Below, in pieces: positions 2,909 to 27,690 of a stretch of DNA of 64,000 bases; the stretch's first letter is position 1, and every line of letters begins with the position of its first letter. The notes under the pieces were generated by a model that saw only the letters and a list, made by a program, of their open reading frames with translations, was not told where the DNA came from and ran no database searches. Source of the stretch: Cliona cf. orientalis (taxonomy: Eukaryota; Porifera; Demospongiae; Clionaida; Clionaidae); NCBI GenBank assembly GCA_963930775.1, contig OZ005699.1, forward strand, positions 1,943,501-2,007,500. Direction: 5' to 3'. Both the position numbers and the translations under genes were made by a program.

Positions 2909-5801
2909 ATGGCAGACTCGAGCAAGGTTAGTTCAATTGCAATTAGTCGTGTGTTGGTATTCTATACGTATATGCGGTCTTGCCCCTCCCACCACTCCGT
3001 ACCACTGCGGCCTACTTATTGCACACATCAACACGCTGATTTTCATTTTAAAAGAAGAGAAAAAGATGTTGAATGGCATCAGATTGATTGCGAGTGCGGC
3101 GGCTAGGTCAGTCCGCGCAGGTGCATGCGCGCCGAGACCAGCCGGCAACCCGGCTGCAGCTGCAGGCCAGCGAAACCTCGTTGGATTTATTCGATACTTG
3201 GTATGTGTTCCTATAGTATGCATATTATAGATATCATCGCCTAGCTGTACATGTAACCTGATGCAGAATAATACCCCCGGTATTATGCGCGTTATTATTA
3301 CGTGCGCGTCAAGCAGGCCATATTTATAGCGTATTCAATAACGCACAAGCATTCCATTTGTAATTTTTGGCTGTCTCTAATAATATTAATTTACAGTCGG
3401 CTTCAAGCACATCAAAGGATGAACCGGGCGAGAAGATATGTATGACACATGAAGACGTAAGTTGACTGCAAGAAATTATCGTGACTCCCAGGGGCTGATC
3501 CATGCAGAGCGGGTGCCCCCCCCCCCCCCCTTCACCAGTTCTTTCAGTATGCAACGTAGTATTGGAGACATCCACCATTATCAATCAGCCACCTCCTTTG
3601 CACCAGTATAGTTAACTATGGGTAGCCACCCCACCAGCCACCTTCCATGCAGATTTTCTGGATCAGCGCCTGACTCCTCAGTCTGTGATGCATATTATTA
3701 TTACTATGGATTTCAGCTCGCTAGGAACATTAATATTATTAAAAAGTCTAAATTTGAAATTGTACTTACTAATAGATTAACAAACCAATAGGTGTAGTGG
3801 TCTGTTCTTTTTTCTTTTTTACATTGTCAAGTGCCTGAGCTGCAAAGTACAGTAGCTAATCATAAACAGACATACAAAAATTGACTACTCTACAATTTTG
3901 TCAAAATTTAATGATCAAATTTATTTTTAGCTTGCTTATTGTTTCTTATAGGTTGTTCAAGCGCTTAAGGTTGGACCACTGATGAGGGGAATTGAAGTCG
4001 ATGTGTCAAATAACTACCATCAGTGCTTCTTGGACACCAACGAGTTTTATATGCGCTACCAAACTCCACAGCAACCCTGGGCCTACGGCAATGTTTCATG
4101 TATGAATTCGGTTACATACATCTTAGTGATACGGCACATATATAGTCTCGTCGCAAATGCAGGCTGATTATTTTGGCATGCATACATGTGACATGCGTTC
4201 TTAGCTATCAATAATATCAAATTTTAACCTTAACCCTCGGGTGCCACTTGTTATTATCGATCAATCGTCTGACTTTACTCCCAAGCATAGCTGCCACACA
4301 TTGTCAAATACCATTGTAGAGTAGAAGGGTCATTGAGTTTAATCTGCATACTTTCACAGTTAATCAATTATATGCATACTTGGTCCGAAACAAAATTAAA
4401 TAACTGCTGTGAATGCATGCATTCATTTATGAATCAGGCCACCAAGTAGTCGAAATGAATTAAGGATCGAAATTGATCGTACATTAATTAATTTTTTGTG
4501 AATGCATGCATATCATCATCCACCATGCACATCACCACCACCCACTGCATGCTTTTCAGGGCTATAGCATCACCTACAGGCTAGGGCCAGGCATTTCTTG
4601 ATGGGGAGGGGGTGGGGTGTAGAAAAAGGATAGTGAGGTCAGATAACGAGTAAATCAGAAGAACTGCATGCAGTATTGCTCGGGACCTGAGGCCATGCAT
4701 GTCTTAGCAAATTACAAACCAGGGGAGTAGGAAGTAATCGCGTGTTGCAGGGGCCACCGATACAAGTTGTGGGTGTGGTTTTGATTACTGAATTTTATGA
4801 CCACAATTATTCTTTTGTAGAGGTGGCATTAAGTAATTTAAACTACGCTTTTACGAAGAAAGTCTGATATAATAAGAATAGCTACATACACATACACAAG
4901 GGTTTTGTATCAAGCCTGATTATTAGGGGGGCCAGGCCCCCCTTCTGAAATATTGGGGGGGGGCCAGCTAGTGGCCCCCCTGGCCCCCCTGGTTCCTACT
5001 CCACTGCAAACTGCATGAATGGTTTGTTTCCCAAGCCCTGAGGCTGTTCATGATTGTATAGCTAAGCACTTTGGTTCTTTTGAATCTCAGCCATATGATT
5101 TGGTAATTGAGTTGACGTTGGGATGGATGTTTAACATTTCCCCTTATAATGGAATTGGTCAGTGTGGTTGTTAAGATTAATAATTAACCCACTTGCACCA
5201 TGCAATTTTCATACAGTGAACTGGATATTCACACCTGATCCTGTTGACACATCTGCTTTCCTCCTCTCTAACTATGTGACGGAGAAGGCCAATGAATCAG
5301 GCACTCCTCCCGGCACATTCAAAACGTATTGCGAAAATGGAACTCAGTTGATGTCTGGTGGATACAACATTCACATTTTAGTAAGAAAATAACCTATATT
5401 AAATGAGAAAACTAGAGATAATCGTGGAGTAGTTACAGCATAGCTACACTAGTTTCCTCTGGGCAGGAAAACCGGTAGGTAGCGGGAGAACAGATAATGA
5501 TTCATAGAAATTAAGAAGGGGTGCAATGGCAATACATTTTTAATGGTGTGCATGCAATTAATAAAGTATACCATGCACGTATGCATACATGTAGGGATAT
5601 GGTGCCAAATTTTATTTTGAGATGGGTCCCGGTTCAACGACTGCTTTTGGCCTTTACACCTATCTCAACGAGACTCCGCCCGTTACCAAGTACTATCTTC
5701 AACCAGAGGCTGGGTCGAATAATCTCATCGTTAAAACTGGAGATCCGCAGTATGTCTTTCGAATTGTTTGGCCGCAGCCTCTTCCGTCTATCACCGCCTA
5801 A
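2909..5801 (+). CDS. Small-family gene SF1 (unrecognised family, 198 aa)
   Basis: Five exons can be read: 2909-2926, 3397-3456, 3952-4099, 5217-5380 and 5595-5801. Each is bounded by GT-AG, and the intron phases are 0,0,1,0, as in SF2-SF5. Exon 1 gives MADSSK. Exon 3 contains YHQCFLDT, exon 4 contains LSNYVTEKAN, and exon 5 begins GYGAKFYFEMGP and contains TYLNETPPVTKYYLQ. The protein has no signal peptide or membrane segment and few cysteines, so it is probably cytosolic. This is the most diverged member: its exon 3 lacks the GVGYF box of the others and its exon 4 has a different end (GGYNIHIL). I do not recognise a known domain. Exon calls rest on splice consensus and alignment with the four paralogues. 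Confidence 0.75.
3489..3672. mobile_element. MITE, CAGGGGCTGATCC termini, in SF1 intron 2
   Basis: Ends are CAGGGGCTGATCC and GGATCAGCGCCTG in inverted orientation, with a C-homopolymer inside. A relative in the opposite orientation is at 57318-57501, sharing GGGTAGCCACCCC-type internal sequence. CAGGGGCK ends resemble hAT-type termini; that assignment is inferred. Confidence 0.7.
4720..5006. mobile_element. MITE, CAGGGGAGTAGGAA termini, in SF1 intron 3
   Basis: CAGGGGAGTAGGAA at the left is matched by TTCCTACTCCACTG at the right. The interior includes runs of G and C (4927-4992). CAAAC flanks both ends, a possible partial target duplication. A related element is at 24660-24813. Confidence 0.7.
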
Positions 5802-6320
5802 AAGGATAGCACCAAACTCAAACACATTGGAATGAGAGCACATATGTAATAATACTATTATGTAGCAGACTATTGACTGTAGTACTAGTGTATATGTAGC
5901 AATGAATTATTAAATTGTAGCTTCTGAGACTTGTTGTACATGATAGAGAAATAGAAATTTAGTTTGAACAAGAATGCTATGGCTATTATAATAATATTAT
6001 TATTAGCATGAGCAGTAAAATTTAATTAGTCTTGTATGCATGCACAGCATTGTTGTGGTGTAGACCAAAAATTACAATGGAGTGTTTATCTTGTGGCCAA
6101 TCTAGCTACTCACGCTACTCACCCAGCTACTAATTTTGTACCATCCAGTACTCCGTTTCCTCATACAGCTATCAGACCATCTACATTCCAATAAGTCTCA
6201 GATCCACCCCTTATTGTTTGCTGGCTAAGCTGATTGGCTTATTCTTCTCAAAGCCTTTTGAGGAAAAAAACAACCATCAATTGGTGAGACACACAGTCTG
6301 TAATGGTTATGATTGTATGC

Positions 6321-6521
6321 AATAAGCAATAAATTAAATTAAGGAAACTACATGCCCTAGCTATATATAGTTTGATGCAGGTCATTGAATCATTCACTCT
6401 CACCCGCTAAACTTCCTCACTGATATCGATGTCAGCTGATCATGAGTGCATGAGTCTACTGCAGCTGGATTTTTTTCTTATTGAAGCACATGATAAAAAT
6501 AATTAATGATTGAATTGAACT
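6321..6521 (+). repeat. Dispersed repeat B, copy 2
   Basis: Near-identical direct copy of 1877-2070, with a small insertion (GCAGCT) near TGAGTCTACT. Confidence 0.85.
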
Positions 6522-7157
6522 AGCTATACTGTACAAAGATTGTGGTGGTCATACTAGTACTGTCCTCAAATCCTCACAGCCCATGGGCCAGTGATGAGCC
6601 TGTGCATTACTAAATCTAGTAGCATGGCCAGAGTTATGAAGGCTATATAAAAAATATTTTTTTAGTGTGGCACATTAGCTAATTCCTTATAGTAAGAATG
6701 CTGTCACTTCAATCTGAGTTCATTAATATAATTAGCATGCCTACTCACTATCCACTGCCATATTGAAAGAATGTGTATGACTAATAAAATTAGTGTATTC
6801 CAAATGGAGGAAACAAACGGTTCCTAGAAGTGTGTAGCCAAAGGGAAATACCAAGGGTCAACATACCAGAGTATTAAATGGGTGAGCACCATCCCCATGG
6901 GTAATAATATGGGCGAAACTACATCTTATTATACTACAATTTTCCTCATGCATAACAAAAATTAATGCTGATTTACCACCGGAATTTAATTAACCTTTGT
7001 TTGGCCACATCAGTATTATGCTTGTATTGGGCCATGCACTGAACATTATTATGTAGCTAATAGTGAAAAGTGTAAGTGACGCTGCTGGTTTGTTGTGAAG
7101 TTAGGGCATGGATTCCTCCTGAAAATTAATTTTGTTGATTGACTCTACCACAGAAAT

Positions 7158-7542
7158 ACCTGCTCTGAGAAAAGGGACCATTCGGGATATTTCATAAAAA
7201 TTGAGTTTTTAGCATGGATTGATAGCTCTGTGTGTGTTGAATCCAATAGTGTAAGTTTCATTAAAAAATATTGATCACAAGTGGAGTTATACACGCAGTT
7301 TGGAAAAATTTAATGTGCATATTAATAATTTTTGTATTAAATTGTCCAAGCAATTGTTTGCACCCATAATGATAATTTACATAATATTGCAATTATATAG
7401 CTACATAACATAGCATATCAATACGAAGCCAAAATTTTACATTTTTTGGTAGAGTAAAAAAAAAAAACAGAAAATTCCCCATGCACATAATTTTAGCGAA
7501 AATGAAATTTCATCCCAAGTGGTCTCTTTTCTCAGAGCAGGT
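7158..7542. mobile_element. MITE with ACCTGCTCTGAGAAAAG termini
   Basis: The left end ACCTGCTCTGAGAAAAGGGA is answered by TCTCTTTTCTCAGAGCAGGT at the right, giving terminal inverted repeats of about 25-30 bases around an AT-rich interior. No coding capacity is seen. Confidence 0.75.
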
Positions 7543-7712
7543 CACATGACTGATGACCTTACCTTGCATTCCAAAGTATGTGTAGGGGGAGGGGGCACTC
7601 CCCTGGAAAGTTTGAAATTTCTGATTCAAGTGTATATATAGCTCCTAGTTTGCATGTACTGTAGTGTTGCTACATACATAATATTTTCAGGCTTCAGGCA
7701 CTATCTGGCCAT

Positions 7713-7725
7713 GGTAAAGGTCGTC
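7713..7725 (+). promoter_or_regulatory. GGTAAAGGTCGTC module, SF2 promoter
   Basis: A perfect copy of the recurrent module lies 192 bases before the SF2 ATG. Other copies or close variants are at 12049, 12136 (reverse), 12162, 12789, 12839, 17616-17653, 27223, 38277 and 46210. Function is inferred from recurrence in gene-proximal positions. Confidence 0.45.
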
Positions 7726-7778
7726 AAATGCGCATAAGGGGGTGTGGCCAGTCGTCGCCCGCGCGCGCCGTTAACGCG

Positions 7779-7861
7779 TTCACGTGCTAGTCTCGCGCGC
7801 CAGCCCCTCCTACGCAAAGAGAGAGGAGGGGGAGGGGCTGGCGCGCGAGACTATTCACGTG
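7779..7861. promoter_or_regulatory. Long GC-rich palindrome upstream of SF2
   Basis: CACGTGCTAGTCTCGCGCGC (7781-7800) and the CAGCCCCTCC after it pair with GGAGGGGCTGGCGCGCGAGA and CTATTCACGTG (7831-7861), leaving a loop of about 20 bases. E-box CACGTG ends sit on both arms. It ends 44 bases before the SF2 ATG, so it may be part of the promoter or 5' UTR, or the remnant of a MITE. Confidence 0.7.
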
Positions 7862-7904
7862 CAGATCCGTATGTTTTTCTTCTGTAAGACTCTAAGAGCT
7901 AGAG

Positions 7905-10730
7905 ATGGCTGAATCGTCCAAACAGCTCGAGACTGCCGATTGTGAGGTCGGTACGGCTATTCTGATTTGTAATACCTATCACATCAATTTCTGAGTAGCT
8001 AGCTATAATTATCAAGTTCAATCTGCTATGGTGAACTTTGTCATAATAATAATTATTATTATTTTACAGCGACAGTCATCACAGGATAAAATACGTATTC
8101 CAGCCAAGAATTTGATTTTGTCATATACTAATGTAAGTCCATGCATGCATGCATCATACATACTTCCACTGTAGTGAAAAAATTATTTGTGACTCAGACA
8201 GTGAAATCCAATTAGCCTCCTACCCAGACTCGAGGGGGAGGCTCAGTACAGATAGCTAATTATAGTGATTTCTCTGGTTGAGTCACAAAAATATACTCAT
8301 CCTGGATATGAGACTAGCGAAATTACATGCTTAAAGAATGATAGACAGCTCTAGATCTGCTATCAAAAGCCTAGCTAGCTGCATTGTGTGAGGCAAGCAG
8401 CATCCGTTTTTTAATTGGCTTATCTGAGGCCTCCCAAGGAGTGGTTGACCACAAAACTTTAAGATAAGATTGAATGATAATTTGCGTAGTATAGTATTTA
8501 ATTATTATAGTATATATACAGCTTCCTAATTGGTGCCAGCTTCCTGTAGAAAGTAAAAGCAAGGGCTCGAGTCTAGGCATACGTGGCATAAAGGAAGAGT
8601 GGTCATATTATCATGTTAGCCTCGTTCCCAGGCCTTTAAAGAGGAGGAGGAGAAGGGCCTGGTACACACTGTACACGCATGCGTCGGGAGACCCCAGAAA
8701 AATGTGGGGTAATCGGATACGATCGTATACTCTCCGTTTATCGTCCATAGAACTGTACATCATGCAGAACCCGTGAACGATCACTATGGTAACACAACCG
8801 GTCGCTATGGAGACCCCAGCGCATGCGAGTGCAGTGTGTACCAGGTCCTTTCTCCTCCTCTTGAAGGGCCTGGGAACGAGGCTAGTGCCCAGTGGAGCCT
8901 AGTATAGTGTGCAGCTGTTGCAACTTGCCAGTCTGTGGCGCTTATCTCAATAACATAACTGATTGCCATTCTATGCTTTGCTGGTCAATTATCAATGCAG
9001 TGACAGTGTAAACAGGCAGTGGTCAGAGTCTCAAGTGCATACTTCATGTCACAGAGGCTTTCAGTTTATATAGTGACATATATAGCCAGGTGCCTTCCCC
9101 CACTGACTCTTAGATCACTGAACAGTACCAGAACCTTGTTCAGGTGCAGGATAAGTAGTTCAATATTGAAGTATTATACACAATGAGCCATAACGGCTAT
9201 AATAATAATATTATTATGCATGCATGTAGTAGTGAGGGTTCTGCACTCCTGTACATTAATTATTATTATATATAATCCTACGTATCAGATTTTTGCTGAC
9301 TTTGATGAAACCTCTGATGAGCCTAAACCGTTCCAGTTACTAGTTGACACTACTGGAAGCAGTAATTATCGCTATTGCTATTTGGATACCACAAATAATG
9401 GTGTGGGATACTTCAACACACAAAATATAGTCACCTACATGAATCTATCACGTAAGTATATTATACTGTGTCATCAGCTATGTATGAGATAGGAAATACT
9501 AATTAGTAATGCCTTGTGAGTTTGGCCCTGAGGACCATTTATACTCTAGTAAAGTATGACATTGTACATTACATGTATACGTAATTTTATAATACAAGTA
9601 GAGTAGATCATCGAAATCCGGACGGTTTTTATAAAGCAACCCATAACTTTCGGATATAACAATGATTTTAAATGATAGAGTACTCAATAGATAGAGCTAC
9701 CAGTCAGCTAACGAATGACACAAACCGTATGTCCCAATCTTTGTTGCAACGCGTGCAAATTGTGCTCAAAGATACAGTGTTACAAATTTATAAACCGGAC
9801 CTCCGCTTCAAATCTCGGACATGCTTGCATATTCTATCTTGGTGATGATCAGAATCGGCCAACGCTGCTACAGGTACATGCACTAGCAGCTACCTCCGGT
9901 CCACCATTTCGATCGTGTTTAGCCACGCCCACCAGTGGGACTCCACCCAATCATTTTCGATGAATCGGACGCAAATAGAGGATGACTACTGGCTAGCTCC
10001 ACTTGTAAGCTAAAGAAAGTTGTAGGAAGCATAGAATCATTTAGTATATGGCCTACCATGACTGTGATTCCGACCAAACTCATCTAAAACCGCATGTCCG
10101 GGATTCGACGATATCCGATGATTGGCAAATTACTCTATCTATTTACTGAAAATTTTGAAATAAAATTTAATGTTCACGAAGTTGAAAAAATTAATGTGCC
10201 TCATACATATGCAGTGATTTGGATGCGAAGGGATGTCATTGATGAAAAAGGTAATCAAGCCTTCCATTTCTCCAATAAGGTGACGGATGGAGCCAATCCC
10301 AACCCGCCTATTGGAGTACAAAACACATACATGATGCAGGCAAACCAGTATGCTTTTGGTGCATACAATCTTCAAGTGTTGGTATGAATCATAATCCAGT
10401 TGTAGTAGCTATAATAATAATAAGCTAACGTTATTCAGATTATGAGTCATGGTGCTTTATAGTTACCCATCACTAAATTTACCCTGAAAGTACTGATTGT
10501 AAGAAATCTGCATTAATTTTATCACACAGGGCGAAGCTGTTAGATTCTACCTGGAGCCAGACCCCACAAACGACAGAAGAATCGCCATTTTCACATATCT
10601 GAATGAGCAGCAAGTTGAGGCCAACAAGTACTATCTTCAACGCAATGACAATGATCGTGGCATCGTTGCAATAATTGGGTCTCAGTTGGGATCAGCGCCA
10701 CTCTACATATTCCAATGGCGATCTGCGTGA
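7905..10730 (+). CDS. Small-family gene SF2 (unrecognised family, 211 aa)
   Basis: Exons are 7905-7946, 8070-8132, 9289-9451, 10215-10381 and 10530-10730, with phases 0,0,1,0. Exon 1 gives MAESSKQLETADCE. Exon 3 carries YRYCYLDTTNNGVGYF, exon 4 FSNKVTDGANPNPP and QYAFGAYNLQVL, and exon 5 VRFYLEPDP, TYLNEQQVEANKYYLQ and the end APLYIFQWRSA. There is no signal peptide or transmembrane segment. The protein is probably a compact beta-rich cytosolic domain, but I do not recognise a known family. This is the cleanest member of the array: all splice sites are canonical and no frame is broken. Its promoter has a GGTAAAGGTCGTC module and a long palindrome. The 3' flank shares a conserved block with SF3-SF5. 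Confidence 0.82.
8617..8884. mobile_element. MITE with 65-base inverted ends in SF2 intron 2, TA target
   Basis: GCCTCGTTCCCAGGCC at the left is mirrored by GGGCCTGGGAACGAGGC at the right. The inverted ends continue through GAGGAGGAG, GGCCTGGTACACACTG and CGCATGCG for about 65 bases. TA borders both ends. Shorter relatives with GCCTCGTCCCCAGG ends lie in the first introns of two epoxide hydrolase genes. Confidence 0.85.
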
Positions 10731-12040: not shown

Positions 12041-12174
12041 AAGGAATAGGTAAAGGTCGTTGAGTCTTCCATGCTCACACTGTACTCACTATCCCACGCT
12101 CATTAACAAGGAGTACAGTGAGCATGGAAGACTCAACGACCTTTACCTATTCCTTGAAGCAGGTAATGGTCGCG
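12041..12174. promoter_or_regulatory. Inverted repeat containing three GGTAAAGGTCG modules
   Basis: AAGGAATAGGTAAAGGTCGT and TGAGTCTTCCATGCTCAC (12041-12087) pair with 12111-12155. The module is at 12049-12060, inverted at 12136-12147, and as GGTAATGGTCGCG at 12162-12174, followed by GATCGAAAAGTGC. Related compact modules follow SF3 (17616-17653) and SF5 (27190-27250). Confidence 0.6.
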
Positions 12175-12851: not shown

Positions 12852-12926
12852 GATCGAAACAACCTCGTGCCCAGCCGGAGCGCTCGCATTGAGCTATCTG
12901 TATTGTGAAGTAGCCTTTGTCTTCTG

Positions 12927-15900
12927 ATGGCTGAATCGGTACCGGCGGCGGTGCCCAAAATGACTGCCAGTTATGCGGTTTGTACGACCATTTTAAATTG
13001 AATAATTCAGAGTACAAGTCTAGCATCTATCAAATCAATTTCTGAGTAGCTATGATAAATCTGCTCAGTAGTACAGTATCAAGTTACATTAGTCTCATAA
13101 CAATAATGGGTGAATCCGAATGAAATGAATATCAAGTTGGCTGAATGTGTTACGCTATACGCTATGATAATTTCATTAGCTAATATTCAGATGCATAGCT
13201 AGTATAGGGCCAAAGATATACTGTATTAAAAAGTTCTAATTGCAACACCAAACAAATTAATTAATTCTTGGCGTTACCATTAAAAATTACTTAAGGCGCC
13301 AGTTTTCATGTCTCTGACTGTACTTTGGTGCTACAATTAGAATGATAACAATATTACGTATACCCAATGCCAAATGGTGCAGTGGTGCATGCTGTAATTA
13401 GAACTTTAACGTATCATAATAATAATTATTATGTTATTTTTAATACAGTCAAAGTCATCAGAAGCTGAGAGACGTACACCGGCCCGTACACCAGCTTAGA
13501 CTTTCATTTTATCAATAGATGATTTATGTAATCCCACTATAATAGTGATAGCTTATAATTAATTTTAGCTGAAATCGCATGCTGTAGAGTGGCACAGCTA
13601 AGCTATAAAAAGCCCGTTTTATAATTAATAATTACAGCACTCACTCCGTGAATTTGTTCTATTTATATTGCACTAACCTACTACTGGATTATCTCAGGAA
13701 TCTTTAAGAAGTGGGTGGTTACATGCACTTCGTAGTAGAGCTAAATATTTGGCAGATAATAATAGATGGAGTGATAACTTAGGCCACTCCAAATAAATTT
13801 CCTGTTTCCCGTCCTGGAAACAACTAATGTAGTATGCGGGCGGGCGGTAAATTCCATTATTTACATAGTAGCAAGGCCTACAGGACACACTTAAACTAAT
13901 TAATTATCACTCACTTGAAGCAAGTATACTACGTGTACAAAAGTAAATGCGGGTATTGCATACGTGCAACAGTACTAATAATGGAAAATTTTGTGACATG
14001 CCAGAAAAGGATGCAGGCGGTGGACGGGAAACAGGAAATTTATTTGGAGTGGCCTTAGTAGTATTATATGAGGCTTCCTTGGATGCCATGCCACCACTAT
14101 AAATCTAATTATTCCAAGTATATAGTACTATCACTTAATGAGTGAGTAGCAACAATATTATACGGGTGTTTTGCATTTCAAGTTATTAATTTTTAATCAT
14201 ACAATATTATACTTGCCACTGTGTGCATGCCTTGTGCTGTGCATCACAGAAAATTAATGTACTCTAGAGCATGTATCTTGCATGCCAGCAGTTCAGCTAG
14301 CTCTAGCTTCATCATTACCCGCGCGCGAGGGTGCTACTAAGGGCCTGAGGGTCTCTTAAAAGCATAGAGACCATTGGACAAGGTCTCTAACTGATTTAGA
14401 ATAATAATATTATAGCAACTGTAACCATGGTATAGTTGACCTGAGGACTAGGATACTATTGCAGTGGCAGTGTGTGTCTTTCTGTGAGATATAGATACCT
14501 GTCAGTAGCCAATCAAATTGCAGTATTTGTTACAGCTATGATTTAGAAAATAGAGACCTCTGAGTGATCGACCAATCAGATCACAGTATTCAAATGAATG
14601 TTAATATGATCCTATGCACATACATGTACATGTAGATTTATGATGGATTTGATGCTACCTCCGATAGTGCACCTAAAGCTAATCAAATACAAGTTGACAT
14701 TGGAAATGGCCAATTCCGTTATTGCTATTTGGATACCAGAAATAGTGGTGTGGGATACCAAGACCCACAAAATATAGTCACCTATGGGAATAAATCACGT
14801 AAGATTAATAATAATAATTATAATTATCAGCTATATACTAATAGGATAGTAATTTTTCATGAGTTTAGAGGACCGATTTATATTATTATAATACATCAGC
14901 ACTGTATTTAGGATTTCTGACAGGCAAAATAGTATGGCATGCTAAATGAAATGTAATGCTCATAAGTTGAAATGGGAATAATCTACATACACTTGTAGTG
15001 GTTTGGATGCGGAGAGGTGTCATTGATGAAAATGATAATAGAGCATTCCTCTTCTCGAATAAGGTGACGGACAAAGCCAATCCTCACCCACCCATTGGAG
15101 TACCAAATACGTACATGACATATGCAAATCAGTATGCATTTGGTGCATATAATCTTCAAGTGTTGGTATGAACCTAGTAATTAATATTATAACTAAGTCT
15201 TGTGATTTTGATCCACATTGGCAGGATAGTAAAATTTAATTTTGCATAGATAGAAGCTTGAGCTGCATACATTGATCCCCTGAGTGCATGATCACTTGAT
15301 TGTCTGGGAGTGGGCACTAGCTTACCCGGGACTCTATGGCACAATTTTCCAAGGTTAGGATTCTGCTGGCCCATACTGAATCCCCCAACCATCATTCCCT
15401 CATGCGTCTTTGCATGCTGAAATGTTGCATGTCTATAATAATAATATTTATGGAATCACTCAACTCACCCTCAGGCTGGAAATATCATAATAATAATTAT
15501 TATATACTATAATACTAATACTGTAATCTCATTGGTCAAGAACCGTTGAATAAATCGTCGTATTCAACATGCGCTACGAAGTGCGGCGCTGCGCCACGTA
15601 CACATCACCTAGCAACCGCTAAGCGTCAGTGGTTGCTATGCGTCGTTCAAGTATAGCATGGCGGCAGTTGAGTCAGCAGAGAGTCGATTTGCGAGTGTGA
15701 GCGAGGATGAAATAACAGCGTTACTACTGGACAAGGATAGCGTAAACACAAAACGAGCAACAAAGGTATCAGTTGGAGTTTTGCAGTTGTATTTGCAAGA
15801 AAAAGGCCAGTCAACGGACTTTGTGTCCCTTCCAGTAGCCTCTCTAAACGAGCTGCTAAAAAAATTTTATGTTGAAGCGAGGAGAAAGGACAAACAGCCT

Positions 15901-17392
15901 TACACAAAGTCGAGTCTCACAGCTATACGCTTTGGACTATGCCGTCATATCAAAAATAGCCGACCAGACGTGGACATCATAAACGGTCCAGAATTTGAGG
16001 AAGCAAATCGAGTTTTTAAGGCTAAGACAGTGGAGCTAAAGCGACAAGGAAAAGCCAAAGTTGAACACAAACCTCCTATTGCTCCTGAAGACTTGAAGAA
16101 GCTGTATAGAAGCCAAACTTTTGATATGGCCACACCCACTGGGCTACAAAACAAGGTGTGGTTTGAAGTGATGCTTTTTTTCTGTAGACGCGGACAGGAA
16201 AACCTTCGTGAGCTCAAAAGAGATTCTTTTAGATTTGGAGTGGATGCCTCAGGCAGGAGATATGCTTTTCAGAATAGAGACGAGCTCACAAAGAACAGAA
16301 GGGAAGATAGCGAAGCTGAAGAAGGTGGATTTATGTATGAGAAACAGGACGATCCAATGTGTCCTGTACGTTCCCTTGATATGTATATATCAAAATTGAA
16401 TCCTGAGTGTGATGCTTTCTTTCAACGACCTAAGAAACAAACCACTGAAGGATCCTTGGCATGGTACGATAAACAGGTGGTCGGTATTAACACTCTAGGA
16501 AGTAAAATGAAAGCCCTCTCAAAACAAGCTCAGCTATCAAGGGAATACACAAATCACTCGATCCGAGCCACTTCTGTCACTATTCTTGACCAGTATGGAT
16601 TTGAAGCACGTCATATCATGTGTATTAGTGGACATAAGAGTGAAACCAGCATCCGCAGTTATGCCAGCAAGACCAGCGATGGAGTTAAGCTTGCCATGTC
16701 CAGTGGTTTAAGTAATGCCTTATGTGATGTGCCAGACAAACTCCCAATAATAGGACACAACTCGACTGCCCCAAGAGAGCCCCTTCAAGATATTCAGAAC
16801 TCAGTTATCACACAGAACAAAACTGTTACTATAGATTCCACAACGTCGAGCAGCAAGAGCCAATTTAGCTTTTACAACTGTACAGTACACATCCTCAACA
16901 AGTAACCATCATCATCATCATCATCAATCATGAGCAATGTGTTATAATGTCTTCTAACATGCATGCTATATACATTATGCCATACAGTATTATCAAGAGT
17001 ATTATTTTGAACTCATGACTGGTATATAATAAAACGATGATTACACACTCCTTCATTGAATAGTGTGTTTATTACTACCCTCGGTGTTGATATTCCACAC
17101 CTCGGGTAGTAATAAATCACACTATTCAATGAAGGAGTGTGTAATAATTGTATATTACTGTAGAAATTCTGCATTTATTACACAGGGTGGTGGTGTTAAA
17201 TTCTACCTAGAGGCTGACCCCACGGATCCGGACAAAGAAAGAATCGCCATTTTCACGTATATGGATGAGCAGCCAATTGACGCCAATAAGTACTATCTTC
17301 AACGCTTTACAAATAATAGTAGCATCGTTGCTATAACTGGGTCTCAGTTGGGTTCAGCGCCACTCTACATATTCCGATTCCGATCTGTATGA
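12927..17392 (+). CDS. Small-family gene SF3, exon 2 damaged, Crypton in intron 4
   Basis: Exons match the family at 12927-12977, 13449 to about 13542, 14636-14798, 14999-15165 and 17186-17392. Exon 1 gives MAESVPAAVPKMTASYA. Exon 3 has FRYCYLDTRNSGVGYQ, exon 4 FSNKVTDKANPHPP, exon 5 VKFYLEADPTDPD and SAPLYIFRFRSV. Exon 2 is broken: an in-frame TAG at 13497-13499 replaces the AAG seen in SF2, and the donor gtaagt after GATGAT is lost. Exon 2 has phase 0 at both ends, so skipping it would restore an open frame of 195 residues. Otherwise this is a pseudogene. Introns hold two MITEs (intron 1 and 2) and a 2 kb insertion with a tyrosine recombinase (intron 4). Confidence 0.7.
13227..13412. mobile_element. 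MITE family C, copy 1, in SF3 intron 1
   Basis: Ends are AAAAAGTTCTAATTGCA and GCTGTAATTAGAACTTT. It shares CTTAAGGCGCCAGTTTTCAT and CTCTGACTGTACTTTG with 45553-45727. Confidence 0.75.
13782..14054. mobile_element. Harbinger-like MITE in SF3 intron 2, TTA target
   Basis: GGCCACTCCAAATAAAT at the left and its inverse ATTTATTTGGAGTGGCC at the right extend to about 36 bases, including CCTGTTTCCCGTCC. TTA borders each end (13779-13781 and 14055-14057). Three-base TWA duplications are typical of PIF/Harbinger. A relative is at 23769-23988. Confidence 0.8.
15658..16905 (+). CDS. Crypton-type tyrosine recombinase (DUF3504-like), 415 aa
   Basis: One uninterrupted frame starts at ATG 15658 and stops at 16903-16905. 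The N-terminal half has a core-binding region (LKKFYVEARRKDKQPY, near residues 60-80) like those of QRICH1, KIAA1958 and ZMYM proteins, which derive from Crypton recombinases. The catalytic half has an arginine in FFCRRGQENLREL (about 175), the HxxR box in NHSIRATSVTILD (about 300), a GHK box and a terminal Y in SIRSYASKTS (about 340). These match the R..HxxR..H..Y arrangement of tyrosine recombinases. Such enzymes cut and rejoin DNA through a phosphotyrosine link. It lies inside SF3 intron 4, in the same direction, and has no SF-family intron. The intact frame suggests a young insertion. Element ends are not certain. Confidence 0.85.
   Translation: MAAVESAESRFASVSEDEITALLLDKDSVNTKRATKVSVGVLQLYLQEKGQSTDFVSLPVASLNELLKKFYVEARRKDKQPYTKSSLTAIRFGLCRHIKNSRPDVDIINGPEFEEANRVFKAKTVELKRQGKAKVEHKPPIAPEDLKKLYRSQTFDMATPTGLQNKVWFEVMLFFCRRGQENLRELKRDSFRFGVDASGRRYAFQNRDELTKNRREDSEAEEGGFMYEKQDDPMCPVRSLDMYISKLNPECDAFFQRPKKQTTEGSLAWYDKQVVGINTLGSKMKALSKQAQLSREYTNHSIRATSVTILDQYGFEARHIMCISGHKSETSIRSYASKTSDGVKLAMSSGLSNALCDVPDKLPIIGHNSTAPREPLQDIQNSVITQNKTVTIDSTTSSSKSQFSFYNCTVHILNK
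17041..17144. repeat. Near-perfect 40-base-arm hairpin after the recombinase
   Basis: 17041-17080 (TTACACACTCCTTCATTGAA and onward) is the inverse of 17104-17144 with one extra base, and inner GGTGT/ACACC also pair. The whole forms a stem of about 45 base pairs, 136 bases after the recombinase stop. It may be the 3' end of the Crypton element or an independent foldback insertion. Confidence 0.85.
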
Positions 17393-17955: not shown

Positions 17956-20900
17956 ATGGGAAACTCAACTTCATCTTGTTGCAGAGCTCAAGCTCAGCCA
18001 GAGGTAATGAATTTTAAACTGATATTAACACTCCAAAAATATTGCTTGAGGCAGATTACTAATGTATAGGAGTTTCATATACTACAAATGTATGTGGTGG
18101 ATGCATGTTTAATATGATAACACTGTTTTGCATACTGCAACCAGTGTACTGTCCTCTTCTCAATGGGCCAAGAATCGACAATAAGTTTATCTTAGTAGAC
18201 TAGCTAGCTATAGCTATAATTTATATAATTATTTCAACAGATCGATGTCATTGTCACTTGGTTTACATAAAATTATTATTATGCTAGCCTCGATACTGTG
18301 TGCACGTGATATATGCCATGCTGGATCTCAGGCTAGGCTCTCCAGGCGTCGTGTCTGCCAACATGCATACCAGCTGTGGGCGCGGTGCCATCCTTAACAT
18401 TACCACGAAGGGGGTGTAGCCTGTCATCCACGAGCACTCCATCCTGTTGAGCTATCTATAATAATTGTTAATATAAAGCAGCCTGTTTCTTCAACTCCTC
18501 TGACTTGCAGGGAAGGCTGAATCAAAACATACAAAGAATCTTGTCATTTAGTCTATTATGTTTTGTACGGTATGGCTCCATTTCTATTACTTATGGATGT
18601 TGGTACCATAATATCATGACAAATTTGGACCCCCCTTCTTTGGTTCCCTCAGTCCATATTATGTTTCAAAATTTAATATTAATTTGGCCATGGACTCCCG
18701 GGCCCTTATATTACTACAGAAAAAAATATGACTTGTGTATCCTCACGAGTGTGATCAACTATAACAGGGTTCAGAGGCTGGGTTCCGGGGCATAAATGGT
18801 TAGCAGGGTTAGTCTCTTGGCTAGGGTCAAAGTCTGTATAGGGAGGGGGGAGGCGGGGGGCATATAGCTACAATTCCATAGAGAATATATACACGGTACA
18901 TTGTAAGAAGTTTAATAATGTTACTATGCTATGTGAATATCTCAATTAGAAATTATGCTTTGAAGTCACACAGTGGAATACTGAACTTAAGATCTAATAA
19001 TTAACATGATGACCTAAGCCTTAAAGGCTTAATAAAGTTGCCACTGGCCATGGCGCATCAGCAGCATGGTTTAGATACTTGAGTCAGGATGCATGGACAG
19101 CTAGCTACATGATGTTGGTAGCAGTCATTACTCAGAGCCAGAGCCAGCTAGCATTTTTTAAGTGGTACGGCCATTAAAATTATTAAGGTGATTGGCAGGA
19201 CATAGACCCAGCGGGAGGAGGATGTCTCTCCTTCCGCACGGAGCATGGAAGCTCAAGGGTATTATGGTATATAGCAAAAATGCACTAATATGGCATAAAT
19301 CATTGCCTGGTTATAATAGGAGTAGAGTATGCAACACACAATGTCATAGTAGTAGTACAATCATCTCTTTCTAAATTTGACATCACAGAATAATAATATT
19401 ATCATGAAGCCATGAATGTTGTGTCAGCACCGTCCTATCAAGGGGGTTAAACCGTTTGATAGTAACTATAGCTCTGGCAGCTGCAGCTATACAGAATGTG
19501 TCGGACTCCATGGTTGCAACCTTTTAATGATCATGTACGAGGGTGGTTATGATGTAAAATCTGTAAGAGATGTTGACTTGTACTACTACCACTACTACTA
19601 TGAGTGTTGCATACTCCTGGCTCTAATGAATGGCTGTCACATGATAAATGATAGCACAATATCAAGATCACAGCTAGCTACAGCTGCATTTGTAGACAAA
19701 TGGGGTAGGATTTGCAGCACAATATCAATAATTATCTGATGATGATCACCTGTTAGCTGCATTTGCAGCTGAACTGACATGTACACCACATTTGCACACG
19801 CCATACAAGACTAACGGGGAGGGGTTTAAGTGAGGGGCGTGACTGGTATGCATTTAATGGAATAAACATTTGCAATGATAAGACCAAGAGGCACGTTTAG
19901 CCATATTATGCCATGCAAGGACAGACTTGGTAAGTGTCTTACCTTCATAAAAATCGGTACGTTCATGGCCATGCTGGCCGAATAGGAGGCACCAGCCCTG
20001 CTACTTACTTATTAACATATTATTAATGACCCTCTATCACCTCTAACTACCCCACAATTTGGGGGTTGAAAATTGTTGCTATGGTAACTGCTACCAAAAT
20101 TATTCAGTAAGTGGTGATAACTACCACTAACATTAGTCACACACATGTACACGACATTGTATAGCTAATAATTATTGTGAAGATCAAAATGTGGTTGATA
20201 CTTGTTAAACATCAAGTTCTGTGACTATAGCTGCTATGGTATACATACTTGCAAGTGGTATAGGACCGAAAATAATAATTATTATTCTGTACATTTTACA
20301 GTCAAGGTCGTCAAAAGATGAAATACCAGCTAAGAGCTTGATTTTGTCTGTACCTGATGTAAGTCTATGCATGCATGTGATAAATTTCATGACTCAGCCA
20401 GTGAAATCACTAATGTAAAGCTCTTACCCAGGCTTGTTGGAGGGGAAGACTAGTAATTTCATTGGCTAAGTCACTAAAATTTAATTAAAAATTTAATTTT
20501 ATCAACATAAATGTGGCTTATCTCGGGCATCTAAAGCGGGTGTCCCCTAATTGCAAAGTGGGGAATACAGAAATTGTGGGAGGTGGTAAAATTATTAAAT
20601 GTGTTACAGCCTAGTGGCGACTATATATAGTAATGGATTTGTAAACTGGTTACTACGAAGTTAGGGCATGTCCAAAGCATGACCATGAGGTTAATGTGGT
20701 GGGCTAGTGATGATATGGGTGCTTGACTGCATAAAATTAATGCCCAAATAATATTTTCAAGAAGAATAACTTGCCTTATGAACAAATACATGTATACATT
20801 TCCGTTACCCATATATAAAAATTAGTAACTGGTGGATAATTTATCAACCGGTCAATGTGGGGAGAACCCTGGGAATAGGTGCAAATTATATATAATAATA

Positions 20901-22365
20901 TAATCTTAATATGATAGTTATTATGATTATGTTATAGCATAGCCATAATCCTATACAACATGTCTATGTACACAGATATTAGCTACCTTTGATGCTAACT
21001 CCGATGAGCCAAAAAGGTTTCAGATACAAGATGACACTGGAAACAATAACTACCAATATTGCTATTTGGATACCACAAATAATGGTGTGGGATACTTCAA
21101 CCCACAAAACACAGTCACCTACATGAATCTATCACGTAAGAGTGTGATCTATTGTTGTCAGCTACCATATTATTATAGCGGGACATTTTCGTATGGTGCT
21201 AATTTTCGTATAAAATTATTTCGTATGCTCCATCCCGAAAATAAAAATTGCGAAAAATTGAATGTACGAAATTTTTTTCTTTTATGTGCGTGACCTTTGA
21301 CCTATACGCCTCCCACGGCTACACGTGGTCGCTAGCGGCAGGTGCTAAATGCAAGGCTAGCTCACTGAACGATGTCTCTTTATCGGTTCTTTGCCAAGGC
21401 ATCAAAACGGAGTGACCTTTCTGATCCCAGTGGACTGCTATCAGCATCGATTACGATCAAGGAAGCCAGTGATGCTAGCGTTACTGTATCCGCACATAAG
21501 TGCGAGCGCTATCAGCTGCACATGTGCGCAATCTCCTGCGGCAAGCATACGAAATTAAAAAATTGATTCTGAGGGAGTTTTGGTCAATCATACGAAAATT
21601 AGCATCAATGAAAATTTCCCGCTATACGGTTAGCTAATAGTCTTGTGAGTTGGAGGACTGGGGTTGGCGAATGTCTTATAATAAGGATCCGGACACCTCT
21701 AAAATGAGGACATCTCCCTTAATCTGCAGGACACTATGCATGGTCCGAGCTACATAGAGACTCAGAGTGTACAATTTTTACTACCCCTGAAATGAGGACA
21801 CCTCCTTTAATCAGGACACTTAAAACTGCATGTCCCAAGGGTGTCCGGACTCCAGAGTAGAGGTACTCATGATGGAAATCATGCATATAATACATGATAT
21901 TGTATATGTACACATGCAGTGATGTGGTTGCGGTGGGATGTCAATGATGAAAACGATAATCAAGCCTTCCTCTTCTCCAACAAGGTGACAAATGGAGCCA
22001 ATCCCAACCCGCCTCTTGGAGTACCAAGCACATACGTGACGCAGGCAAATCAGTACGCATTTGGTGCATACAATCTTCAAGTGTTGGTATGAACTACATG
22101 AAATAATCAAGATTATAATTATAATACATGTAACTGTAATCATTGTTCCACCTTTATCACACAGGGTGATGGTATTAAGTTCTATCTGGAGCCTAAGCCC
22201 ACGGACAACACAAAAATTGCCATTTTCACATACCTAAATGAGGAGCAAGTTGAGGCCAACAAGTACTATCTTCAATTCAATGACGGTAATAGTACCATCG
22301 TTGCCATGACCAGTTCTCAGTTGGGATCAATGCCACCCTACATATTTCAATGGCGAGCCGCGTGA
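17956..22365 (+). CDS. Small-family gene SF4, predicted N-myristoylated (210 aa)
   Basis: Exons are 17956-18003, 20302-20358, 20976-21135, 21920-22086 and 22165-22365, with phases 0,0,1,0. Exon 1 gives MGNSTSSCCRAQAQPE. Gly2 and Ser6 fit the N-myristoylation consensus and Cys8/Cys9 could be palmitoylated, which would put this paralogue on a membrane while the others lack such a signal. Exon 2 gives SRSSKDEIPAKSLILSVPD. Exon 3 has YQYCYLDTTNNGVGYF, exon 4 FSNKVTNGANPNPP and exon 5 IKFYLEPKPTDN and PYIFQWRAA. No frame is broken. The choice of first exon is inferred from its phase and splice site; a decayed MAES-type first exon remains at about 18513. Intron 3 holds an insertion (21174-21629). 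Confidence 0.75.
18446..18530 (+). pseudogene. Relic of an ancestral SF first exon and 5' UTR
   Basis: TTGAGCTATCTATA, TAAAGCAGCCTGTTTCTTC and AGGCTGAATCA follow the SF3 5' flank (GAGCTATCTGTA, GTAGCCTTTGTCTTC, ATGGCTGAATCG) in the same order. The start codon ATG has become AAG at 18513-18515. It lies inside SF4 intron 1. Confidence 0.5.
21174..21629. mobile_element. Inverted-ended insertion in SF4 intron 3
   Basis: TATAGCGGGACATTTTCGTA at the left is mirrored by GAAAATTTCCCGCTATACGG at the right, and ATGGTGCTAATTTTCGTAT recurs inverted just inside. The matching SF5 intron lacks it. A short frame (21372-21566, MSLYRFFAKASKRSDLSD) may be the remnant of a transposase N-terminus; I cannot assign it. 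Confidence 0.7.
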
Positions 22366-23601
22366 ACTCACAAACTCGTTGACAGTATATTCCACAAGAC
22401 CATAGTTGAAGAGAGACTGTAAACTTACTATATTATATTAGTACTATAGAAAGTCACTAGCTGATTCTACATAGTATACATAGCTAGTGTGTATGATATT
22501 TTGTCAATAATAATAATATTATAATGAGTCTGTATTAATTAAAGGGTTGGGAGACGTAGTGCATAGCAGCATATGGCCAAATATCACGCAATTATTCAGA
22601 GATGATCAAATAATTATTAATGCTTAAAGCCAGCGGTGGAAATAACATGTCCCCCATGCCACTTTCCACTGCTTAATATTATTATGATGGAAGGCCCATC
22701 TATATCTGACAACTGCAGATCGAACCAGGGGCGGATCTAGGAATTTTAGTATGGTGGTTGTAGGTAAATTGTGCGCCCACGCCCACTTTTAATGAGCCAC
22801 ACCCAGAGTGATCAGTACCACAGTTACAACACTAGGTAGAGCTTTACCACACCTAGCACCATAGCTGACTCTTGTGGTTTACAGGCGATTATTCATAGCT
22901 GAAGCCATGTTCAGGATGTACCACTAACCACCGTGCACCACCTGTCCGTTTGAGGCCAATTATCTACTACACATGCAGCTTGTCTGCTGCTATTATACCG
23001 TATGGCGGGAAACTTTCGAGGAAGAAACCCCCTGAATCCCCCCCCCCCCCCCCCCCCCCAGATCTGCCCCGGAGAACCCTTTTTATGTAGCAAATCTGAT
23101 GTTTCCCCTCAAGCTATAATTTAAGGCACGAAAGGAGGCTATAAGGTTTAGGTGGGAAATGTGACCACATAAACATCTTTAAAGTTTACCATTCCCACAT
23201 CAAAGACAATCTATACTGAACAAAGGCTGATATGCCTTAGTCATGATGGAGAGGATACTGTAGTTCAATCACCAGGGATTATAACAAGCTAGACGAATAT
23301 TAATGTGCAAACTTCATGGTACACAGATTTTTTATTATAATAATAATCATCCTTAGGCTACCATCCTATTATGTTTGCACTATTATGGATGTGTAAAAGA
23401 ATTTGTAGTTCCACCTCTCTGTCTAGACATACCCGCCTTCATAATAATGAATGGACTATACTCTATCATAATATCTTGAGAAGATTCATGCATTGAATAA
23501 ACTTAAAGGGGGGGGGGCTAATAACAACAGATGGTATAATATTATATATAACATTGTATAATGTCATATTTCCACACCAATCATCAGGAAATCGAACAGA
23601 G
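22366..23601. other. Intergenic SF4-SF5
   Basis: Begins with the conserved SF 3' flank (to about 22430), then a CAGGGGCGGATCTAGG-ended element (22726-23072). From 23073 to 23601 I see AT-rich sequence with a G run near 23510 and no gene. Confidence 0.55.
22726..23072. mobile_element. MITE, CAGGGGCGGATCTAGG termini, copy 1
   Basis: The left end CAGGGGCGGATCTAGG is followed by TAGTATGGTGGT and CCACGCCCACTTTTAAT, as in 58353-58591. The right end is CCAGATCTGCCCCGG after a long C run. The ends resemble hAT-type MITE termini. Confidence 0.7.
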
Positions 23602-26600
23602 ATGGCGAAGTGGCCTAGGTTGGAGGAAGACAACAGTCAGGTATGCCCATGTGCTAAATTTCTATGCAAATTGTCACCCGTAACCTTAAACAGCTTGGTA
23701 AACTGATTTTGTCCTCTACTAATTTTAGGTGAGTCGGCAAGATTGTGTGTATGCAAGGACCTTTATAAGGCCACTCCAAGTCAATTAGTTGTTTCTCATC
23801 CCCCCTTGATTTCCGCCCGCATGTATTTCTATCATATCATATCAGCATGAGCACAAGACTGCTGAACTTATGGTTTTGACGACCATTTCCCGTCAAACTT
23901 GTGATTAAACGACCATTTCCAGCCGCCCACCTGCATCAGTTTTTTGGCTCAGGGGGGATGAGAAATAATGAATTAATTTGGAGTGGCCTAATAATAATAT
24001 ACCCAGCAGTTTACAATTTATTTTCGCGAGTAACAAGCTCTTTGTATCTCCACAAGGAAAGCAGCTATGAAACGGCTGAAACAAAAACGAAAATATAGCT
24101 AAAACATGATGATAGAGACAGCTGTCATAACATTGGAAGTGACCTTCCCATCGCAATAGTCAGGCCATGGTCAGGCTATGGCTGCCACTTGTCACGAACT
24201 CTTGCGTCAAGTTTTACTTCGACAAAGGCTTCTAATCTACTTTCTACAGTGAAGTACTTAACTTACTCCAGTGCTGGACGGTTGGTTCCCAAATTCATAG
24301 AGCTTACATGTATATACACAGAGGGAAAGCTACACAAAAGAAGGTAATTTATGCCAAGCGTAGTGGCGCACCAGGTAATCAACAAGGCTGTCTAGCTGCT
24401 TTCTGACAGGTGGCCTTCAAATTTACACCAACTCCAGCCCAGCCTGCCCAGATGTCTGAGTAATAAGATAAACACTTCCTTACATCTAAAGAGAAGCCAT
24501 CAGACATGAAACTTGACTTATCCCAATTTGAAGTCACACAGTGGAATACTGAACTGAGATCTAAAAAATAAAGTTGCCACTGGCCATAGTGCATTAGCAG
24601 CATGGTTTAGCTACTTGAAAATCAACATTTTTAACTATCATATAGCAGACTGCATATTCCATAGGCGTAGGAACCATGGGGGCTCCGGGGGCTGGTGCCC
24701 CCGGTTTTCTGATAGTTACATAGCTAGGCTCAATTTTCTACACTCTGATCATACTCCCCTTGCCTATAGATCTATAGAGCACCCCTTTACCAAACCATCT
24801 TCCTACGCCCCTGTATTCTACGAAACGGTGAAGCTGCAAGTAGAATTATGAAACCAACATCTAACTATATATTTTGGTAGCAGTCACTAATGACCCTATC
24901 ACTAGTCTCACAAGCCAGACTGCTCCCACTGCAGCATTTAGTTCTTTCAGGATAAACAACTGAACGCTGCAGTGGGAGCGGTCTGGTATTGAGACTACTC
25001 TATCACCTCTAACTACCCTCACAATTTGGGGTTGAAAGTTATGTTGCTATGGTAACTGCTATACTAAATGTATCAGCGTGGTGATATACCATTAACATTA
25101 GTCACACACATGTACACGACATTGTATACCTAAGATTATAACCTTGTTCTGTGACTATAGCTGCTATGGTACTTCAAGGACTGTGTTAGCAGCTAAGCTA
25201 TGGCACATACAAGTGGTATAGGACTGAAAATTAATTATTATTCTGTACATTTTACAGTCAGGGTCGTCAAAAGATGAAACACCAGCTGAGAGCTTGATTT
25301 TGTCTGTGGATGATGTAAGTCAGTGCATGCATACCAGTGATAAATTTCATGACTCAGCCAGTGAAATCACTAATTTAAAGCTCTTACCCAGGCTTGTTCG
25401 AGGGGAAGACTAGTAATTTCATTGGCTAGGTCACTAAAATTAATTTTGTCAACATAAATATAGCTCATCTCAAGGGGGTGTCCCCCAAAGTGGGGAATAC
25501 AGAAATTTTGGGAAGAATAACTTGCCTTATGAGCAACTACATGTGTATATTTCTATGTATTTTAATACCCATAGAGTTAGCAACTGGTGGGTAGTTTATC
25601 AATTAACCGACCAGTGTGGGGAGAACCCTGGGAATAGGTGCAAATTGTATATACCATAGAATCCTGTTGGGGTGGGGGCATAATCGCGGGATTCTATGAT
25701 AATAATATTATACTAATCTTTGATATCATTCTATACATCATGTATGTACACAGATTTTTGCTGACTTTGAGGATGTTACATGTACCTCTGATAAGTCAAA
25801 AAGGTTTCAGATACAAGTTAACACTGGAAACAATAACTACCAATTTTGCTATTTGGATACCATAAATAATCGTGTGGCATACCCAACCTCACAAAACATA
25901 GTCACCTACAAGAATCTATCACGTAAGAGTATAATTTCAATAATTTTATTATTGTCAGCTATAAGATAGGAAGAACTAGCTACCTAATAGTCTCGTGAGT
26001 TGGAGGACTGGGGTTGGCGAATATTTTATTACAAGGACACCTCTAAAATGAGCACATCTCCCTTAATCTGCAGGATACTATGCATGGTCCCAGCTACATA
26101 TATATAGAGAGAGTGTACAATTTTACTACCCCTGAAATGAGGATACCTCCTTTAATCAGGACACTTTAAACTGTCCCAAGGGTGCCTGGAATAGAGGAAT
26201 TCCACTGTACTCATGACGGAAATCATGCATATAATACATGTACATGTACACATTCAGTGATGTGGATGCTAAGGGATGTCATTGATGAAAAAGGTAATCG
26301 AGCCTTCCTCTTCTCCAACAAGGTGACGGATGGAGCCAATCCCAACCCGCCTCTTGGAGTACCAAGAACATACTTAACACAGGCAGAACAGTACGGATTT
26401 GGTGCATACAATCTTCAAGTGTTGGTATGAACTACATGTAATGATCAAGATTATAATTACCGTAAATCGCGAATATTTCGATGTTAAAATATTTTCGGAC
26501 AGCATGGCTTGTGCGAAAATTAAACGCACGAAATACATACGCAATATTAACGATAATGCGGTACAGGGTCGTTTGTCCGAAAATTATTTAACACGAAAAA

Positions 26601-26894
26601 TTATCGCATGAAATATTTTAGACACGAAATATTCGCGATTTACGGTATAATACATGTAACTGTAATCATTGTTCCACCATTATCACGCAGGGTGATGGTG
26701 TTAAGTTCTATCTGGAGCCTAAGCCCACGGACAACACAAAAATTGCCATTTTCACATATCTAAATGAGGAGCAAGTTGAGGCCAACAAGTACTATCTTCA
26801 ATTCAATGACGGTAATAGTACCATCGTTGCCATGACCAGTTCTCAGTTGGGGTCCGAGGCATCACTCTACATATTCCAATGGCGAGCCGCATGA
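23602..26894 (+). CDS. Small-family gene SF5 (unrecognised family, 211 aa)
   Basis: Exons are 23602-23640, 25258-25314, 25754-25922, 26258-26424 and 26691-26894, with phases 0,0,1,0. Exon 1 gives MAKWPRLEEDNSQ, unlike any other member. Exon 2 gives SGSSKDETPAESLILSVDD. Exon 3 has YQFCYLDTINNRVAYP, with the usual GVGYF box altered, and exon 4 FSNKVTDGANPNPP. Exon 5 is nearly identical to that of SF4. The gene is the closest paralogue of SF4, including intron sequence, so the pair arose by a recent tandem duplication of about 5 kb. Intron 1 carries three insertions and intron 4 a 186-base MITE that SF4 lacks. No broken frame is seen. Confidence 0.77.
23769..23988. mobile_element. Harbinger-like MITE in SF5 intron 1, TAA target
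   Basis: GGCCACTCCAAGTCAATTAG at the left is mirrored by GAATTAATTTGGAGTGGCC at the right, and TTTCTCATCCCCCC recurs inverted. TAA borders both ends. The family matches 13782-14054. The interior has two copies of CGACCATTTCC. Confidence 0.8.
24660..24813. mobile_element. Short MITE, CATAGGCGTAGGAA termini
   Basis: CATAGGCGTAGGAACC at the left is answered by TTCCTACGCCCCTG at the right. Related in its ends to 4720-5006. It lies in SF5 intron 1. Confidence 0.6.
24905..24995. mobile_element. 91-base foldback MITE in SF5 intron 1, TA target
   Basis: GTCTCACAAGCCAGAC and CTCCCACTGCAGC are mirrored by GCTGCAGTGGGAG and GTCTGGTATTGAGAC, with TA on both sides. The matching SF4 intron (near 20030) reads straight through the site. 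Confidence 0.8.
26460..26645. mobile_element. 186-base MITE in SF5 intron 4, TA target
   Basis: CCGTAAATCGCGAATATTTC and its perfect inverse GAAATATTCGCGATTTACGG form the ends. TA flanks both sides (26458-26459 and 26646-26647). The SF4 intron carries the uninterrupted site ATTATAATTATAATACATG. The 43740-43931 element shares CCGTA ends and TA target. Confidence 0.92.
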
Positions 26895-27222
26895 ACTCAC
26901 AAACTCGTTGAGAGTATTCCACAAGACTATAGTTGAAGAGACTATAAACTTACTATATTATTATATATATTAGTACTATAGAAAGTCACTGATTCTACGT
27001 AGTAGCTATACGTAGCTAGTGTGTATATATGATATTATATCAATATATAAATGAGTCTGTATTAACTAAAGGGTTAGGAGACTTAGTGCATAGCAGCAAT
27101 GGCCAAATATGTGTATCATGCAATTATTCAGAGATGTACATGTTAAAGCCAGCCAGCAGAGGAAATAACATGCCCCACCTTCCCCTGCACATGGAAGACT
27201 CAATGACCTTCATGGATGAAGC

Positions 27223-27252
27223 AGGTAATAGTCGTCGAACAAAAAAAGTGCT
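27223..27252 (+). promoter_or_regulatory. GGTAATAGTCGTC module upstream of SF6 remnant
   Basis: GGTAATAGTCGTC, then GAACAAAAAAAGTGC, follow a degenerate inverted half (CAATGACCTTCATGG). The same order is seen at 12136-12185 and 17616-17666. Confidence 0.4.
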
Positions 27253-27467
27253 TATAATAATTATGCTCGTATGTCATGTTCCATGTGATCTGTAGGCCAT
27301 ATAAAATTATAAAATGGATCTAGCTTGTGGGATAAACCTAATATTAATAATAGGTAGCACCTATATACCTGTATAGCCATCACTTCACTAAGCCTGTGCA
27401 GACTCCTGGAACTACAATATCAGATTCTATATACCAATAAGAAATTTTGTATTAATTTGTCACACAG

Positions 27468-27690
27468 GGCGATGGTGTTGAATTCTACGTGGAGCCTGAC
27501 ACCAAGAGTGACAAAAACTTCGCCATTTTTACACATTTTTATGAGCATCCAATCAGAGAGGACAACGAATACTACCTTCAATGTCATGCAAAAGATTGTA
27601 GCATCATTGCCATACTCAAGTCTCAGTTGCAATAATTATTGAAATCAGCGCCTCTCTACATATTATTCTAGTTTCGATCCGTGTTAACTC
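27468..27690 (+). pseudogene. Orphan last exon of a sixth small-family gene (SF6)
   Basis: After an acceptor (cacacag) the sequence reads GDGVEFYVEPDT, FAIFTHFYEHP and EYYLQCHAKD, aligned with exon 5 of SF2-SF5. The frame stops early (TAA at 27632-27634), but traces of the normal ending (SAPLYI, TTTCGATCCGTG) follow in another frame to about 27690, and the conserved 3' flank follows (ACAAGACTAGTTGAAGAGAG). No exons 1-4 are seen between SF5 and this exon. It is a truncated duplicate. Confidence 0.8.

Follow-up and report, generated by a model that had tools for sequence, protein, structure and literature searches.

A tandem family of small, apparently uncatalogued genes in the sponge Cliona cf. 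orientalis

What are the small head-to-tail genes between positions 2909 and 27690 of a 64,000-nucleotide stretch of the genome of the sponge Cliona cf. orientalis, and what do they have in common? The stretch analysed (hereafter the window; C11:1943501-2007500) belongs to a genome of 217 Mb in 149 contigs, and an initial annotation, made from the letters alone, had placed in it a tandem array of five five-exon genes and one orphan exon of an unrecognized protein family. Here we report that the locus comprises six related units (g0 to g5), each with an open core formed by exons 3-5, plus one remnant (g6); five of the units stand head to tail on the + strand of the window, and one lies outside it. 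The family is under net purifying selection and, as judged by similarity searches, apparently uncatalogued. Its members are as follows, in window coordinates unless stated.

C11:1940211-1942951 (0.5-3.3 kb upstream of the window): g0, a complete copy
2909-2926, 3397-3456, 3952-4099, 5217-5380 and 5595-5801, + strand: the five exons of g1, 198 amino acids (aa), open, assigned from splice borders and phases
3066-3200, + strand: candidate exon 1b of g1, 45 codons from ATG to GT, phase 0, mitochondrial-presequence-like
7905-7946, 8070-8132, 9289-9451, 10215-10381 and 10530-10730, + strand: the five exons of g2, 211 aa, open
12927-12977, a broken exon 2 from 13449, 14636-14798, 14999-15165 and 17186-17392, + strand: the exons of g3
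17956-18003, + strand: proposed first exon of g4 (MGNSTSSCCRAQAQPE), with an in-phase GT donor; its link to g4 is putative
20302-20358, 20976-21135, 21920-22086 and 22165-22365, + strand: exons 2-5 of g4, open, phases as in the array
23602-23640, + strand: proposed first exon of g5 (MAKWPRLEEDNSQ), with an in-phase GT donor; its assignment is putative, and similarity gives it no support
25258-25314, 25754-25922, 26258-26424 and 26691-26894, + strand: exons 2-5 of g5, open, phases as in the array
27468-27690, + strand: g6, a last-exon remnant with stops

Splice models of the array units share GT/AG borders, a protein of about 200 aa and the intron phases 0,0,1,0 that the initial annotation had read from the sequence. 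In g0, g1 and g2 the whole frame is open and the borders are GT/AG, and no inner stop interrupts the joined frames of g1, g2, g4 and g5 (g4 and g5 with their proposed first exons). In g3, exons 1, 3, 4 and 5 are open, but exon 2 is interrupted by a TAG in frame and lacks a GT where the donor is expected; because this exon is phase 0-0, the frame stays open without it and encodes 195 aa. Thus the related head-to-tail genes are real, but the attribution of five exons to each does not hold: g1 and g2 are the only secure five-exon genes in the window, exon 2 of g3 being broken and the first exons of g4 and g5 proposed. The conserved blocks described earlier (CYLDTxNNGVGYF, KFYLEPxPT, EANKYYLQ and others) are present in g2-g5, but g1 lacks exact FSNKVTDGANPNPP and QYAFGAYNLQVL. 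Likewise, the supposed orphan exon is a related last exon from 27468 onward, but it carries stops and is a dead remnant. The extent of 2909-27690 is genuine within the window, but the array runs on upstream with g0, and it therefore consists of six open-core copies and the remnant.

Intron 4 of g3 contains an intact 415-aa open reading frame for a tyrosine recombinase (window 15658-16905), which matches DUF3504 (expectation value (E) 1.8e-11) and, below the cut-off of that model, Phage_integrase (E 5.8e-5); we take it to be Crypton-like. Its own genome yields 104 listed matches at E<=0.001, itself included, and two other listed copies are 98-99% identical to it over 367 and 305 of its 415 residues.

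How closely the copies are related was addressed by searching the sponge genome (tblastn, best candidates only scored, E<=10) with g1 and g2. The g2 query listed 15 matches, 13 of which, at E 1.1e-37 to 1.9e-9, fall in exons 3-5 of g2-g5 or in the g6 remnant; the other two are g2 exon 2 (8.1e-5) and a weak match to g0 (0.24), and g1 is absent from the matches listed. With g1 as the query, eight of the 15 matches listed are exons of g0 and g1, six are exons of g2-g5 (E 0.0011 to 0.4) and one is a stray on another contig (E 0.075). The expansion posited earlier is therefore modest, since these searches gave this locus and one weak stray match among the matches listed. Over exons 3-5, g0 and g1 are 92% identical, whereas g0/g1 share 34-41% identity with g2-g5. 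Although the kinship between the two groups is weak by BLAST, it is made firm by this identity, the shared phases and 43 invariant columns in the exon 3-5 alignment of g0-g5.

Substitution rates over exons 3-5, estimated pairwise by the Nei–Gojobori method (NG86) for the 15 pairs among g0-g5, bear on both constraint and history. The ratio of non-synonymous to synonymous substitutions (dN/dS) stays under 1 for every one of the 15 pairs (range 0.28-0.83) and lies at 0.28-0.56 in 14 of them; the g4/g5 pair accounts for the 0.83, so that little constraint is visible in it. Synonymous divergence (dS) is 0.07 for g0/g1, 0.12 for g4/g5, about 0.3 for g2 against g4 or g5, 0.44-0.54 for g3 against g2, g4 or g5, and 1.4-2.3 for g0/g1 against g2-g5, values that point to an old split between g0/g1 and g2-g5 and to two recent duplications. 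In a decaying array made up mostly of pseudogenes, one would expect features such as the broken exon 2 of g3, the dead g6, the uncertain starts of g4 and g5 and the high g4/g5 ratio. Against such decay stand the three fully open copies with GT/AG borders and the lower ratios of the other 14 pairs, and we regard it as distinctly unlikely.

Near-identical last exons, recognized by eye, precede g1 (window approximately 2121-2341) and g0 (positions 4360-4581 of the upstream locus L016). The L016 copy, the only one scanned, resembles the end of the second-largest subunit of RNA polymerase (PF04560, with an E of 9.6e-6 that falls short of the Pfam cut-off), and this polymerase-like exon was apparently copied together with g0/g1.

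Does the family have known relatives? The collections searched were Pfam (g1-g5 and the remnant), NCBIfam and PHROGs (g2 and g4), the PDB (the g2 sequence, then a six-row profile) and prokaryotic, plasmid, phage and viral sequences, with the window's own genome representing eukaryotes. Pfam gave no credible match for g1-g5 and the remnant, only weak rows that we judged to be chance: PF21428 (two of six members, best E 0.0091) and PF04057, PF04634 and PF07495 (one of six members each), all below the Pfam cut-offs, and PF02872 (one of six, E 0.11). NCBIfam had no match for g2 or g4, and the lone PHROGs row for these queries (phrog_15997, E 0.13) was likewise put down to chance. Neither the g2 sequence nor the six-row profile found a PDB entry. 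A Paracoccus match in the plasmid search with g3 (E 6) was judged fortuitous, leaving no plasmid relative; g2 matched no phage. One short pattern occurs in 18 stretches of prokaryotic genomes, and 72 and 111 pattern stretches were found in viral contigs, none of them a relative. No Rfam family reached the gathering threshold in the window, and none of the titles and abstract openings listed in literature searches describes the tandem family. The description of the family as unrecognized was thus borne out in Pfam, NCBIfam, PHROGs and the PDB, and the profile search proposed with it gave no strong match to a characterized domain family in these four. It is nevertheless close to an even chance that annotations of the family exist for other sponges or for early animals, outside the collections searched: the sponge's own genome was the one eukaryotic set among these, and the dS of 1.4-2.3 across the g0/g1 split suggests an old family, against which stands the lack of any Pfam model matching the array proteins.

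Membership of the bacterial PixA/AidA inclusion-body protein family (PF12306) was suspected from the order of motifs in the core; the array could then be a diverged eukaryotic branch that kept the fold but not the sequence. The PixA/AidA members fetched are similar in length (about 175-186 aa) and, by eye, share the order of P/G, Y/F-M, G-x-L, G-x-V-x-F and I-x-Y motifs, with exons 4-5 (NP.PP.G...Y...G.YNL..L.G..VKFY...IAIFTYL) paralleling PixA (P..PTGI...FM...GQGTADL.F...GD.VSF...AVIVYGI); unlike the array genes, they are bacterial single reading frames. For the comparison, further PixA members were gathered by similarity and 30 were aligned, after one row (L075) had been dropped as the same gene as L070 and two rows overlapping one locus (L077/L078) had been replaced by one trimmed protein. 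A profile alignment limited to the region picked by eye scored 17.6 against 15.0 for the reversed profile, a score reached by 13 of 200 shuffles. By contrast, the full-length profile score was reached by 34 of 200 shuffles, with the reversed profile higher (19.0 versus 17.6), and hhalign gave P 0.19 against the 30 aligned proteins, at a region different from the one picked by eye, and P 0.32 against a single PixA. PF12306 matched none of the six members and gave 0/1 in a scan of the sponge genome, in which no control matched either; the model detects PixA in one of 12 plasmid records (0/5 and 1/7) and in six of six genomes chosen for holding one. The suspected membership thus has no statistical support (hhalign and shuffles), and we consider it very improbable.

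The proteins themselves are small and acidic: the six cytosolic forms have masses of 21.8-24.2 kDa, isoelectric points of 4.4-5.4 and 1-3 cysteines. Across the seven modelled proteins (g4 and g5 with proposed first exons), the highest 19-residue Kyte-Doolittle mean is 0.71-1.24, and hydropathy, the sole measure used, revealed no signal- or membrane-like hydrophobic segment. From this composition, the proteins are probably intracellular and soluble. The beta-sandwich named in the initial annotation stays hypothetical: the one model, made with AlphaFold2 for g4 exons 4-5, is strand-rich but has a mean predicted local distance difference test score (pLDDT) of 39.9. Its input, read through the short intron, includes 26 artificial residues and leaves out exon 3. 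A sugar-binding family of the lectin kind, such as a beta-trefoil, would agree with the strand-rich pattern of this low-confidence model and with the closing FQWR, which recalls a QxW motif, both of them impressions only; neither Pfam nor the PDB offers a match, and the exon repeats are unsupported, which makes the lectin assignment improbable. An internal repeat between exons 4 and 5, suggested by a MAFFT misalignment, found no support: exon-versus-exon profile scores were reached by 62, 40 and 252 of 300 shuffles, and hhalign gave P 0.25, 0.09 and 0.64. A three-fold internal repeat is likewise unsupported by these scores.

The candidate exon 1b of g1 lies in intron 1 and joins openly and in phase to exon 2; K/R make up 6 of its 45 residues and D/E none. 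It has two genome matches, both within the array. The g0 version, also open and in phase, differs from it by two silent substitutions, a single amino-acid replacement and the loss of three bases in frame, so that its changes keep the frame, whereas the surrounding intron differs between g0 and g1 by indels of other lengths. Judged by eye, exon 1b looks like a mitochondrial presequence. The proposed first exon of g4 (MGNSTSSCCRAQAQPE) resembles what we take to be an N-myristoylation/palmitoylation signal. A search for first exons aligned those of g2 and g3 to the regions upstream of g4 and g5, with 200 shuffles each; upstream of g4, one stretch resembling the promoter side of the g3 first exon scored 30, barely over the highest shuffled score (28).

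Taken as a whole, the reading we tentatively prefer, at somewhat short of an even chance, is that the family is restricted to its lineage, that its proteins are soluble and intracellular, and that their first exons act as address tags. Each protein would join an N-terminal tail that varies between copies, from exons 1-2, to a single conserved core from exons 3-5; the core may be a small binding domain working inside the cell. The first exons would be interchangeable: MADSSK or MAESSK would make a plain cytosolic tail, exon 1b of g0 and g1 would provide a presequence of the mitochondrial type, and the proposed exon 1 of g4 might provide a lipid anchor. As part of the same whole, and with equal reserve, the array may have grown by local tandem duplication. 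A bolder version, in which an undescribed animal domain is sent to cytosol, mitochondria and membrane by first-exon swaps among paralogs, for example as a lineage-unique organelle sensor or protector, appears unlikely.

Several observations weigh against the preferred reading, in addition to the weak constraint on g4/g5. Exon 1b is known from two recent copies, with three substitutions to judge by. That the proposed first exons belong to g4 and g5 is a guess: upstream of g5, the g2 and g3 first exons score 23 and 20, where shuffles reach 29 and 32, and in the region before g4 the adjoining start-codon match (AAG for ATG) scores 20, not above the shuffles. The AlphaFold2 model of exons 4-5 (predicted template modelling score 0.29) is of very low confidence and uninterpretable.

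The rest of the window contains features of other kinds. Positions 1-1260 hold, by eye only, a reverse-transcriptase-like remnant of a non-LTR (long terminal repeat) element. Tandem alpha/beta-hydrolase genes of the epoxide-hydrolase type occupy 29287-38141, where by eye three N-terminal exons resemble one another, as do three C-terminal ones; one C-terminal part matches Abhydrolase_1 (E 2.5e-23) and is up to 42% identical to hydrolases of bacterial plasmids. An uninterrupted ankyrin-repeat frame of 1753 aa spans 49951-55212, with a P-loop GTPase-like stretch (by eye) after the repeats, and a second very long ankyrin-repeat frame, similar to it by eye, spans 59939-62541.

The array resembles the lineage-restricted tandem orphan families of animals, a class marked by local duplication, shared intron phases and a lack of database relatives; unlike that class, it includes two copies with a candidate for an alternative first exon that would encode a mitochondrial-type presequence. 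Should the core turn out to have a new fold, or to be a hidden offshoot of a bacterial family, the domain repertoire of early animals would grow by one. Exon 1b, if true, would offer a simple, testable example of paralogs sent to another part of the cell by gaining a different first exon. At present, the array is one more orphan tandem family, genuine but modest.

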